From: Hadesarchaea archaeon
Lineage (GTDB): Archaea > Hadarchaeota > Hadarchaeia > Hadarchaeales > Hadarchaeaceae
Direction of reading: 5' to 3'
Length of the DNA stretch: 7,130 nt
Assembly: GCA_030616505.1 (NCBI GenBank)
Contig: JAUWXD010000013.1
Coordinates: 1-7,130 of the forward strand
Positions 3,072 to 6,281 of this stretch are shown here, piece by piece. Position 1 is the first letter of the stretch. Every line of letters starts with the position of its first letter. The position numbers and the translations under genes are program-made. The notes under the pieces were generated by a model. That model was not told where the DNA came from. It did no database searches and saw only the letters and a program-made list of their open reading frames with translations.

Positions 3072-3539
3072 ATGGAACGCTTGACGAATGAAGAACAAGA
3101 GCAGTTGCAGCGTGTTATAGCCCAGCTTAACAACCACCAAGCTTCCGTGGAGCCACTCCGCCAACATATCTCCATGCTCACTACATCACTCACGGAGCTT
3201 TCCATGACAATCGGCACAATCAAGTCATTGAAGGAACTTGAACAGGGAACAGGGATACTAGTCCCCGTTGGATCTGACTCTTTCATCAACGCCAAAATCG
3301 CCCAGCCCGATAAGGTATTGACAGGGCTTGGTGCGGATGTGGTGGCCGAACGTACCACCGACGATGCTGTAAATGTCCTCGAGTCGCGCTCAGCAGAGCT
3401 CGGGAAGGCTATGGAACAAGCACGCAACGAATTAGAGCGGTTGGAGGAGCGCATCGAGACGCTTAGGCCTGAAGCAGAGAAACTCTTAAGGAAGGCAAGA
3501 GACGAGCCCGAGCGACAAGGGGCAACGTTAGATGTTTGA
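3072..3539 (+). CDS. pfdA: Prefoldin subunit alpha
   Basis: Prefoldin alpha forms, with beta, a hexameric jellyfish-shaped chaperone that takes unfolded proteins and passes them to the thermosome. The 155-residue sequence has the expected plan. It starts with an N-terminal coiled coil (about 3-55, LTNEEQEQLQRVIAQLNNH onward). A beta-hairpin region follows, containing GTGILVPVGSDSFINAKI (58-75) and VLTGLGADVVAE (81-92). A second coiled coil spans about 97-145, with ELERLEERIETLRPEAEKL near its end. GTGATC (3064-3069) upstream is a good archaeal Shine-Dalgarno site. The last 8 bases overlap the start of ftsY, which suggests coupled translation. Confidence 0.94.
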   Translation: MERLTNEEQEQLQRVIAQLNNHQASVEPLRQHISMLTTSLTELSMTIGTIKSLKELEQGTGILVPVGSDSFINAKIAQPDKVLTGLGADVVAERTTDDAVNVLESRSAELGKAMEQARNELERLEERIETLRPEAEKLLRKARDEPERQGATLDV

Positions 3540-3840
3540 TAAGCTGAAGAAAAGGCTCAAGCAAGTAAAAGAGCGTATCACCAAGAAAGTTGCGTCAGAA
3601 CCAGTTACTGAAGCTCCACCAGAAACGAAACCTGAACCTGAAGTTTTGTCTGATGCACAACCAGAAAGTCCACCTGAGGCCCCAACAACGGCCGAATCTG
3701 AAGTTCTGCCCGAAGCACCTCCAGAAAAGGTACCTGAAACCAAACCCAAACCTGAAGCGCCTCCAGAAGAATTGCCTAAAGCCCTATCTACCAAGCCAGA
3801 GGCCCCGCCCAAGGCTCCTCCGAAAGCCCCCCCCCCGTGA
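3532..3840 (+). CDS. ftsY: FtsY N-terminal part: membrane-binding helix and acidic Pro/Glu-rich A domain (frame-split from the GTPase part)
   Basis: These 102 codons look like the front end of the SRP receptor rather than a separate gene. They begin MFDKLKKRLKQVKERI, an amphipathic basic helix like the membrane-targeting helix of FtsY. Residues 23-102 are a low-complexity Pro/Glu/Lys linker, as in the variable A domain. The frame ends at TGA 3838-3840 right after ten C; the NG domain continues in another frame from 3837. With one extra C (C11) or two fewer (C8), both parts would form one protein, of about 403 residues in the C11 case. Possible causes are an assembly or sequencing indel, slippage during expression, or true splitting. 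The ATG overlaps the pfdA end by 8 bases; the upstream GGGG (3519-3522) is a weak Shine-Dalgarno site. Confidence 0.8.
   Translation: MFDKLKKRLKQVKERITKKVASEPVTEAPPETKPEPEVLSDAQPESPPEAPTTAESEVLPEAPPEKVPETKPKPEAPPEELPKALSTKPEAPPKAPPKAPPP
3631..3750 (+). repeat. Imperfect 60-base tandem duplication in the FtsY A domain
   Basis: Positions 3631-3690 and 3691-3750 align without gaps at about two-thirds identity, both in frame. They encode PEPEVLSDAQPESPPEAPTT and AESEVLPEAPPEKVPETKPK. A weaker third copy may begin at 3751 (PEAPPEELPK). This suggests the acidic linker grew by duplication. Confidence 0.55.
3827..3836 (+). repeat. Run of ten C at the ftsY frame junction
   Basis: Ten consecutive C lie exactly where the two ftsY frames meet, followed by GTGA, in which GTG (downstream frame) overlaps TGA (upstream frame). 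Such runs are prone to length change in replication, sequencing and assembly. Confidence 0.95.
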
Positions 3841-4742
3841 AGAAACCAAAAAGGGGATTGCGGAGGGCAGTGAAACGCATCGTCCGGAGAGAACTCGCCC
3901 CTGCAGACATCGAGGACATCATCTGGGACCTCCAAGTAATCTTGCTCGAGAGCGATGTTGCAGTCACGGTCACCGACCACATCGTCGAACGGATTAAAGC
4001 AGGCCTTGTAGGGCGGAAGCTTGGCGTTAGAGAGGACCCGAAGAAATTGGCAGACGAGGTGCTACGACAGGCGATCAAAGAGGTCCTGTCAACTGAGCAA
4101 AAGGTCGACTTAATCAAGGTCATCGATGCCAAGCGCGCCAAGGGGGAGCCCACAGTGATGGTTTTCGTGGGGATAAACGGCACTGGAAAGACGACAACTA
4201 TAGCCAAGATGGCACGATACCTGATGGGCCATGGCTACAAAGTCGTGCTCGCAGCAGCTGACACCTTCCGGGCCGCAGGTATCGAGCAACTCGAGATACA
4301 TGCTGGGCGCGTAGGCGTAGGGATAATCAAACAGCGCCGCGGGTCAGATGCAGCGGCGGTGGCATATGACGCGATAGCTCACGCGAAAGCTCGCGGAATC
4401 GATGTGGTTCTCGTTGACACGGCTGGGAGGATGCAGACGGAAGTCAACCTTATGGATGAGATGAAAAAAATCGTGCGTGTGGCCAAGCCAGATATGATAA
4501 TTTTCGTTGGGGACGCACTCACTGGGAACGATGCAGTCGAGCAGGCCAAGACGTTCGATCAGGCAGTTGGGATTAGTGGCTCAATTCTGTGTAAGATGGA
4601 TGCGGACGCTCGTGGAGGAGCGGCTCTCTCGATAACACATGTCACGGGCAAGCCGATTCTCTTCTTGGGTACTGGGCAAGGGTACGAGGATTTGGTCGAG
4701 TTCAAGCCAGACATCATCTTGAATGCGCTCTTTGGAGACTGA
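3837..4742 (+). CDS. ftsY: Signal recognition particle receptor FtsY, NG GTPase domain
   Basis: FtsY receives SRP-ribosome complexes at the cytoplasmic membrane and, with SRP54, hydrolyses GTP to release the nascent chain to the Sec channel. This 301-codon frame holds the whole NG unit. The helical N domain spans about 5-95. The P-loop is GINGTGKT (112-119), followed by DTFRAAGIEQL (142-152) and DTAGR (194-198). The guanine-specificity motif is CKMD (252-255), then the closing motif ARGGAALS (258-265) and GTGQGYEDL (278-286). ADARGGAA and a C-terminus without an M domain separate it from SRP54. CKMD replaces the usual TKxD. GTG 3837 has no Shine-Dalgarno site, only C10 upstream, so it is probably not a real start but the continuation of the frame begun at 3532. 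It is the last gene of the operon. Confidence 0.93.
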   Translation: MKKPKRGLRRAVKRIVRRELAPADIEDIIWDLQVILLESDVAVTVTDHIVERIKAGLVGRKLGVREDPKKLADEVLRQAIKEVLSTEQKVDLIKVIDAKRAKGEPTVMVFVGINGTGKTTTIAKMARYLMGHGYKVVLAAADTFRAAGIEQLEIHAGRVGVGIIKQRRGSDAAAVAYDAIAHAKARGIDVVLVDTAGRMQTEVNLMDEMKKIVRVAKPDMIIFVGDALTGNDAVEQAKTFDQAVGISGSILCKMDADARGGAALSITHVTGKPILFLGTGQGYEDLVEFKPDIILNALFGD

Positions 4743-4799: not shown

Positions 4800-4868
4800 T
4801 GGCACGGATGATGTCATAACATCGTCTGAGCAAACGATGATTTGATTGATGGGCGGACTGACGTGCCC
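4800..4868 (+). ncRNA. Box C/D guide sRNA (predicted 2'-O-methylation guide)
   Basis: All parts of an archaeal C/D sRNA occur in order. The closing stem is GGCACG (4801-4806) paired with CGTGCC (4862-4867). Box C is ATGATGT (4808-4814), D' is CTGA (4826-4829), C' is ACGATGA (4834-4840) and D is CTGA (4858-4861). The outer kink-turn works in detail: 3-base bulge GAU (4807-4809), tandem G-A pairs G4810/A4861 and A4811/G4860, U-U, then G-C. The seventh base of C, changed A to T, pairs with A4857. The inner C'/D' motif has a 4-base GCAA spacer. Guides are 4815-4825 and 4841-4857. Such RNAs bind L7Ae, Nop5 and fibrillarin to methylate rRNA or tRNA. A promoter 25 bases upstream supports independent transcription. 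The target is not established. Confidence 0.8.
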
Positions 4869-4922: not shown

Positions 4923-6281
4923 TCAAACCTTTGGGACATCTTTCAAAGCCTTATTCACAAGCTCTACCGGGTACTCGTAATCCTTCAGTTTCTTGGAGTG
5001 ATAGGCATCATAAGCTGCCAGATCAAAGTGGCCGTGCCCACTGTTAGCAAAGAAGATTACCTTCTCCTCGCCAGTCTCCTTACACCTCAGAGCTTCATCG
5101 ATTGTGCCTTTGACACAGTGTGCTGTCTCGGGTGCCACCACGATACCCTCAGCGTGTGCGAACGTAATCGCAGCGTCGAATACTTCATTCTGGTGATATG
5201 CAACAGCATCTATGACTTTCTCCTTTACGAGCTTGCAGAGTAATGGAGCGTCGCCGTGATAGCGCAAACCTCCCGAATGTATCGGTGGCGGGACGAATGA
5301 ATGACCGAGTGTGTACATCTTGAGCAAGGGAGTCATCTTAGCAGTGTCACCAAAGTCGTACATATAAGGTCCTTTAGTTAAGGTTGGACATGCCTTTGGT
5401 TCGCATGCCACGACCTTCAGTTCCGGTTTTTTACCTGTGAGTTTATCCGCCACGAACGGGAACACAGCGCCTGAGAAATTGCTCCCACCTCCAACGCAAC
5501 CGAACATGATGTCAGGGTAATCGCCTGCGAGCTCAAACTGTTTTTTCGCCTCAAGGCCGACCACGGTTTGGTGAAGTAGAACGTGATTAAGCACGCTCCC
5601 AAGCGAATATTTCGTGTCCTCGTGCTTTGCGGCATCCTCCATCGCTTCCGAAATCGCTATCCCTAAACTGCCCGTACATTTCGGGTCGTTCTTGAGTACA
5701 CTCTTCCCATACTCTGTACGCTCACTTGGACTGGGGATACACGTGGCTCCCCACGACTCCATCAGGATGCGACGGTAGGGCTTCTGCTCGTAGCTGATCT
5801 TGACCATGTATATCATGCACTCTAAATCGAAAAGGCGCGTGGCAAAAGCCAGGGCACTTCCCCACTGACCTGCACCAGTTTCTGTTGTTATCCGTTGGGT
5901 TCCTTCTTTCATGTTGTAGTACGCTTGAGCAACAGCCGTGTTCGGTTTGTGACTTCCTGGAGGGCTGACCCCTTCCCATTTATAATATATTTTGGCAGGA
6001 GTCTTCAGTGCTTTCTCCAACCTTCGAGCGCGATAAAGTGGAGATGGGCGCCATAGTCGGTAAATATCTCGAACTTCCTCTGGAATTGGAATCCATCGCT
6101 CTTGACTGACCTCTTGTTTTATAAGTTCCATTGGAAAAATCGGTGCTAATGCCTCAGGACCAATCGGTTCCTTTGTCGCAGGGTTGAGCGGAGGATCAAG
6201 AGGAGTCGGGAGATCAGCTTGAATGTTGTACCAAGACTTCGGTATCTCGTTTTCATCGAGTAGGAACTTCACTTGCTCCAT
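4923..6281 (-). CDS. trpB2: Tryptophan synthase beta chain, TrpB2 type
   Basis: This is a PLP enzyme that joins indole and L-serine to give L-tryptophan. The 452 residues, longer than the roughly 400 of TrpB1, and the N-terminal extension ending [15 protein letters not shown] (78-92) mark the TrpB2 class. GSHKPNTA (109-116) carries the PLP-binding lysine K112. ETGAGQWG (134-141) and the phosphate-cup motif GGGSN (264-268) follow. HSGGLRYHG (335-343) and NSGHGHFD (413-420) are further conserved blocks. No trpA or other trp gene is nearby, as is common for TrpB2, which is thought to work without tight TrpA binding, perhaps for indole salvage. The stop TGA is at 4925-4923. ATG 6281 has a GGTCGTTGG stretch just upstream and would have a very short leader from the TATA at 6312-6319. 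Confidence 0.95.

Follow-up and report, generated by a model that had tools for sequence, protein, structure and literature searches.

A stand-alone gene for a probable box C/D guide sRNA in Hadesarchaea, with a D guide predicted to direct 2'-O-methylation of rRNA

The window, by which we mean the whole stretch of 7,130 nucleotides of archaeal DNA analysed here, carries the gene for FtsY and a convergent trpB-like gene, separated by 180 bases between the end of the ftsY stop codon at 4742 and the beginning of the trpB-like stop codon at 4923 on the minus strand. A box C/D sRNA of ~67 nt lies in this gap on the plus strand, at 4801-4867, with the elements in the order stem, box C, box D', box C', box D and the layout GGCACG-g-ATGATGT-CATAACATCGT-CTGA-gcaa-ACGATGA-TTTGATTGATGGGCGGA-CTGA-CGTGCC (Table 1). 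A preceding sequence-only reading had reported a complete sRNA of this class, with a 6-bp closing stem and the four boxes in order, in a 180-base gap. The gap, the stem and the order of the boxes were all recovered, and its coordinates, 4800-4868, give the right locus with ends one base too wide on each side.

Table 1. Features of the sRNA locus and its neighbours in the window
Feature	Position	Strand	Remark
BRE/TATA-like element	CGAAAA 4765-4770, GTTAAA 4772-4777	+	~26 bases before the stem
ftsY core (SRP54 GTPase and N domain), upstream neighbour	3837..4742	+	PF00448, 4.2e-75
Terminal stem, 5' arm GGCACG	4801..4806	+	covariation with 3' arm
Box C ATGATGT, last base T not A	4808..4814	+	ATGATGT in 25/25 copies of the group of the window
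D' guide CATAACATCGT	4815..4825	+	core ACATCG in most copies; complementary to the 23S site and to box C
Box D' CTGA	4826..4829	+	CTGA in 24/25 copies; TTGA in G017
Box C' ACGATGA	4834..4840	+	6/7 of RUGAUGA; mostly GCGATGA in relatives
D guide TTGATGGGCGGA	4846..4857	+	position -5 is G4853; fits the 16S C1402 and 23S C2558 sites
Box D CTGA	4858..4861	+	in 25/25 aligned copies, which were parsed by box D (degraded second copy of G009, without box D, excluded)
Terminal stem, 3' arm CGTGCC	4862..4867	+	covariation with 5' arm
trpB-like PLP enzyme, convergent neighbour	4923..6281	-	PF00291, 1.4e-36

The boxes of such RNAs are short, which leaves room for a chance arrangement. With a descriptor combining boxes C, D' and C' at a match of at least 5/7, box D, and a stem of at least 5 bp, a single place was found in the window (with two readings of C'), and none on 4000 strands from 2000 dinucleotide shuffles. 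Box C of the window matches RUGAUGA at 6/7 positions, beside a covarying 6-bp closing stem with a CTGA box D. Given also the covariation and the conservation in relatives described below, we assign a chance origin next to no probability and consider it already refuted.

The BRE/TATA element that the sequence-only reading had placed so that transcription starts at the stem was found again, and it recurs at the same place in G022, the genome nearest to the window (CGAAAAGGTTAAA; CGAAAA/GGTTAAA). Across 25 copies, the A+T fraction is 0.68-0.84 between 40 and 30 bases upstream of box C, and a second A+T-rich stretch is located 15 to 8 bases before it.

The ftsY gene of the window is at most 85% identical to those of Hadesarchaea MAGs and 89% identical to that of G022, in which both neighbours (the trpB-like gene being 90% identical) and the promoter-like element are kept. 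A DNA search detected relatives of the sRNA in 15/19 genomes. Using a covariance model (R1) built from an alignment of 17 sequences (A1), we found the sRNA in 23/28 genomes of the Hadesarchaea phylum; R1 gave no match in G002, G013, G014, G020 and G021, which are draft assemblies of unstated completeness. Fibrillarin scores above the Pfam cut-off in the genomes of 26/28 relatives, and the remaining two have weak matches.

Gene context was compared at loci from the 23 genomes with 1.5-kb flanks, some of them ended by a contig edge. The trpB-like gene is the convergent neighbour in 14/23 genomes, and ftsY is present in the flank of 5/23 (G009, G010, G011, G012 and G022). The description of the sRNA as lying directly after ftsY therefore holds for the window, G009, G010 and G022 (the sRNA is also 3' of ftsY in the loci L009 and L010), but not in general. 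Because ftsY is in the flank of only these five genomes, the sRNA gene is independent of it.

Some genomes contain more than one copy. Two copies with starts 194 bases apart are present in G004, the second of which (L135:1307-1384) has all four boxes. G009 has a degraded second copy that lacks box D. Such a degraded copy, without a recognisable box D and beside an intact one, was seen at L128:1379-1449 (minus strand, 26.3 bits) and at the corresponding position 3' of the sRNA in L009.

A separate observation concerns the upstream neighbour. The P/E-rich N-terminal part of FtsY (3532-3840) and the GTPase core (3837-4742) are out of frame in the window, and the break sits at a run of ten C. The N-terminal part is in one frame with the core in 14/15 loci of relatives and in G022; L014 is without such a part. 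The frame break may be genuine, or it may stem from slippage or an error in sequencing.

Comparison with relatives shows that the stem covaries and that boxes C and D are kept. In A1, five of the six stem pairs show changes in both partners, and all six do so in a larger alignment of 33 sequences (A3), where the covariation score is 0.763 and slid partners give 0.056-0.175. The model itself served to align A3, whose counts therefore lean towards the stem; A1 was not aligned in this way. The sequence-only reading had put weight on the outer kink-turn, where the T ending box C and the A before box D were taken as a coordinated deviation that keeps the pair and is hard to get by chance. The T is indeed invariant in the group of the window (25/25), and A usually precedes box D (A 21, T 3, G 1), but the pair is not strictly kept. 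With T-A in 21/25 copies the argument is weaker than stated, and it is weak evidence beside the strong covariation of the stem. In the Methanobacteriota copies introduced below, box C ends in TGATGA, followed by A in 49/50 genomes read and by T in one.

The D guide hardly varies among the copies. Positions -3 to -11 before box D read UGAUGGGCG in 25/25 copies, save for one C at -8. Using the +5 rule as given in the accessible text of Dennis et al. (PMC4644070), the predicted target nucleotides opposite G4853, the fifth base before box D, are C1402 of 16S rRNA and C2558 of 23S rRNA (E. coli numbers). C1402 is in helix 44, in the decoding region, and C2558 is in the stem of the A-loop hairpin 92. 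The 16S site reads ACCGCCCGUCAA (ending in AC in G015), and the 23S site reads UUCGCCCAU(U/C)AA, or UUCGCCCGUUAA in G015 and G026. Against the consensus sites, positions -2 to -12 of the window guide form 11 bp with one G-U pair in the case of 16S and two in the case of 23S. With these G-U pairs intervening, the guide stays below nine consecutive Watson-Crick pairs, the number that the same text (PMC4644070) gives as a rule for guide-target duplexes.

Among all sites in 16S and 23S rRNA together, the D guide scores best at these two in 7/8 genomes, and in G015 the 23S site ranks third; this ranking covers the rRNA matches of eight genomes, among which the 23S of G005 is incomplete and some genes have insertions. 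Of 400 shuffled guides, 1-8 reached the observed second-best score and 11-32 equalled the single best site, so that a match to one site is not significant alone. CGCCC is common to both sites, which are therefore not independent.

The guide positions that bear on the choice of subunit are those at which the two sites differ, namely -1, -2, -8 and -10. Position -2 of the guide is G in 19/25 copies and A in 6/25, where A pairs with the 23S site only and mismatches the C of 16S. At -8 it has U in 24/25 copies and C in one (G026, whose 23S has G for A); the 23S of G015 and G024 also has G at the partner of -8, with the guide U retained. At -10 it has G in 25/25 copies, which pairs with the C of 16S and forms a wobble pair with the U that most 23S have. 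All 50 Methanobacteriota genomes read have A at -2, U at -8 and G at -10, and a variable base at -1, directly before box D (G 28, T 15, A 7); these counts come from 52 loci in 50 of 137 matched genomes, the best-scoring plus 20 picked ones and not a random sample, and include kin, so that the genomes are not independent. In a comparison of 22/25 copies, with both G004 copies and the G025 copy left out, pairing from -2 to -11 is unbroken with 23S in 14/14 genomes with their own 23S, and with 16S in 9/12 genomes with their own 16S, the other 3/12 having a mismatch at -2. In the same copies, the fixed-register duplex energy ranges from -16.6 to -18.4 kcal/mol for 16S against -13.9 to -16.6 kcal/mol for 23S, and favours 16S in every row.

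If 16S C1402 were the single target, the 23S match would be a by-product of the common CGCCC. The more stable duplex, the invariant G at -10 and the frequent G at -2 agree with this, as does the listing of the C1402 position as Nm in P. abyssi (Cm1369), yeast, human and E. coli in the accessible part of PMC11542601. The U at -8 would then merely wobble with the G of 16S, both here and in all Methanobacteriota read, and the A at -2 would mismatch the C of 16S in six copies and in those 50 genomes, where -2 is fixed and -1 varies. We regard a guide for 16S only as unlikely. A guide for 23S C2558 only, with the 16S match as the by-product, would fit the unbroken pairing with 23S, the C of the G026 guide, which matches the G of its 23S, and the A at -2 in Methanobacteriota, whose 23S A-loop region (UUCGCCCAUUAA in 2 genomes) suits this base. 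Yet none of the copies read has A at -10, though most 23S have U there, the duplex is weaker than that with 16S, and we found no published Nm at C2558 in the literature looked at. This alternative, too, is improbable in our estimate. Either single-target model has to allow for a fixed wobble, whereas a dual-target model explains the residues at -2 (where it is G), -8 and -10.

The conserved wobble residues thus point to both sites as putative targets. We tentatively propose, as a possibility short of an even chance, that one D guide methylates both subunits, in the decoding region (16S C1402) and in the A-loop hairpin (23S C2558), and that selection preserves its dual fit by retaining G or U at the internal positions that distinguish the targets (G at -2 for C/U, U at -8 for G/A and G at -10 for C/U). 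The A at -2 in Methanobacteriota would make the 23S half the dominant one there. We think that at least one of the two nucleotides is methylated. Yeast snR70 and human U43 are given for the C1402-equivalent site in the part of PMC8817022 available to us. Speaking against a target there, the halophile table of PMC2584109, as far as accessible, has no 2'-O-methyl at the 1402 position in H. volcanii. In the accessible text of Dennis et al., predictions in helix 44 are sparse and those in the A-loop are at U2552 and C2556; 1402 and 2558 are absent from the main text, and a listing in the supplements is possible (PMC4644070).

The D' guide gives a less uniform picture. The core ACATCG(T), present in most copies, can form 6 bp with CGAUGU of the consensus 23S (C2501-U2506), where the predicted U2504 site lies 54 nt before the C2558 site. 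At least nine consecutive Watson-Crick pairs are formed in 4/10 genomes with their own 23S and the common D' type (G010, G015, G024 and G027). The window D' guide forms six consecutive pairs with the consensus 23S, the target in G026 is altered, with a mismatch at -4, and the guide is a different sequence in G017, G018, G028 and G029. As judged from these pairings, the D' guide would be weaker and lineage-dependent, at best for 23S U2504.

The D' core can also pair with box C in an 8-bp hairpin, for which 94% of cells are paired in A1. The minimum-energy folds of the window and of G022 contain the hairpin, and that of L138 contains 5 bp of it. These features would suit a kink-turn RNA with another role, such as an L7Ae-binding element in the 3' UTR of ftsY or an RNA that switches by means of the hairpin. 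Several observations argue against such a role: no hairpin pair in A1 changes on both sides, the hairpin is absent from the best folds of L125 and L144, the D' guide differs in the four genomes mentioned above, the RNA persists where the flank is without ftsY, and the D guide, not the hairpin, is common to the Methanobacteriota copies. We consider another role very improbable, and the hairpin would be a by-product or a folding hazard resolved by L7Ae. The hairpin was also considered as the cause of the T in box C and rejected, since the T is retained in the four genomes whose D' guide is a different sequence.

Some rRNA genes of the relatives show irregularities of their own. In the 23S of L113, L114, L116, L176, L177 and L179, CGATGTCG is not immediately preceded by the usual TTTGCTACCT, which suggests introns ending at the putative D' target in these six loci; several 23S matches exceed 3.5 kb. 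The 16S match in L103 (G018) spans 2356 bases against ~1480, likely owing to an insertion or intron. In the 23S of L175 (G026), C replaces the A of CUCGAUGUCG that is present in the other 23S read, either by error or in reality; we take this A to be E. coli A2503.

Beyond the Hadesarchaea phylum, R1 was applied to 24 of 61 further genomes and matched 13 at E ≤0.1, many of these matches being weak. A second model (R2) was built from 24 copies of the phylum and 9 from other archaea, after dropping a minus-strand match in the window (19.5 bits), which was taken for an effect of the palindrome, and the degraded copy in L128, and then L128 entirely. R2 matched 137/149 Methanobacteriota genomes. The likeness may come from common descent or from convergence, because these probable relatives differ in the D' guide and in the spacing from C' to D, which is 16-17 nt in the group of the window and ~12 nt in Methanobacteriota. 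A search of six Methanobacteriota genomes for an exact 12-nt target of their D' guide gave matches at the sRNA itself only. Weak matches in G030 and G035 (26.8 and 25.7 bits) have C at -8 and a better fit to 16S, and may be separate 16S guides.

A covariance-model search had been suggested as a check, with a split outcome: the model from relatives matches widely within the phylum, whereas no Rfam family reached its cut-off on the window, the best being sR2 (RF01139) at 20.2 bits against a gathering score of 42. The sR2 score is 25.9 bits for L009 and 27-41 bits for the copies of other archaea, with L163 (G035) at 40.8 just below the cut-off. A literature search found no paper on Hadesarchaea snoRNA, and no title on this sRNA among the matches listed. 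The sRNA family is new, in that no Rfam model recognises the window copy; the kind itself is known.

The boxes in order, the covarying stem, the promoter-like element, the conserved guide, the fibrillarin of the relatives and the copies in other archaea all favour assigning the RNA to the box C/D class, a reading drawn from sequence comparison. We hypothesize that the ~67-nt sRNA is the product of a stand-alone gene, which probably has its own promoter, that L7Ae, Nop5 and fibrillarin would bind it at C/D and C'/D', as expected from its class, and that the D guide would direct 2'-O-methylation of the rRNA nucleotide opposite G4853, at 16S C1402 and/or 23S C2558, with a weaker D' guide. We put the probability of this reading at roughly 0.8.

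An sRNA family of the Hadesarchaea phylum is thus delimited, and targets are proposed for it; Methanobacteriota and a few other archaea probably carry relatives. The sRNA is ordinary in kind and has a clear candidate function, and its interest lies in its guide. Ribose methylation of C1402 is carried out by a protein enzyme in bacteria and with a snoRNA in eukaryotes, and an archaeal guide would allow a comparison across the three domains. If the guide serves both subunits, it would be a simple test case of a dual-target guide tuned by wobble pairs.

Compared with known systems, the RNA resembles the archaeal box C/D sRNAs of Dennis et al. 2015, as described in the accessible text (PMC4644070), in its size, terminal stem and C-D'-C'-D order, and in guides that, by the +5 rule, are predicted to address functional centres of rRNA, possibly at two sites within 100 nt of each other. 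It differs from them in having a promoter-like element of its own, a TATA-like motif being given in the accessible part of PMC7994747 for ~20% of the studied genes of archaeal C/D sRNAs, in the C'-D spacing of 16-17 nt, and in a single guide that fits both 16S and 23S. Rfam sR2, the best sub-threshold match, has a printed D-guide consensus, GAUGGCgGcu, that differs from the D guide of the window, which scores far under the cut-off. The equivalent target nucleotide is modified by the U43/snR70 snoRNA in 18S rRNA (Cm1703/Cm1639) and by bacterial RsmI in 16S rRNA (Cm1402), according to the accessible parts of PMC11542601 and PMC8817022, and these are analogues by predicted target only.
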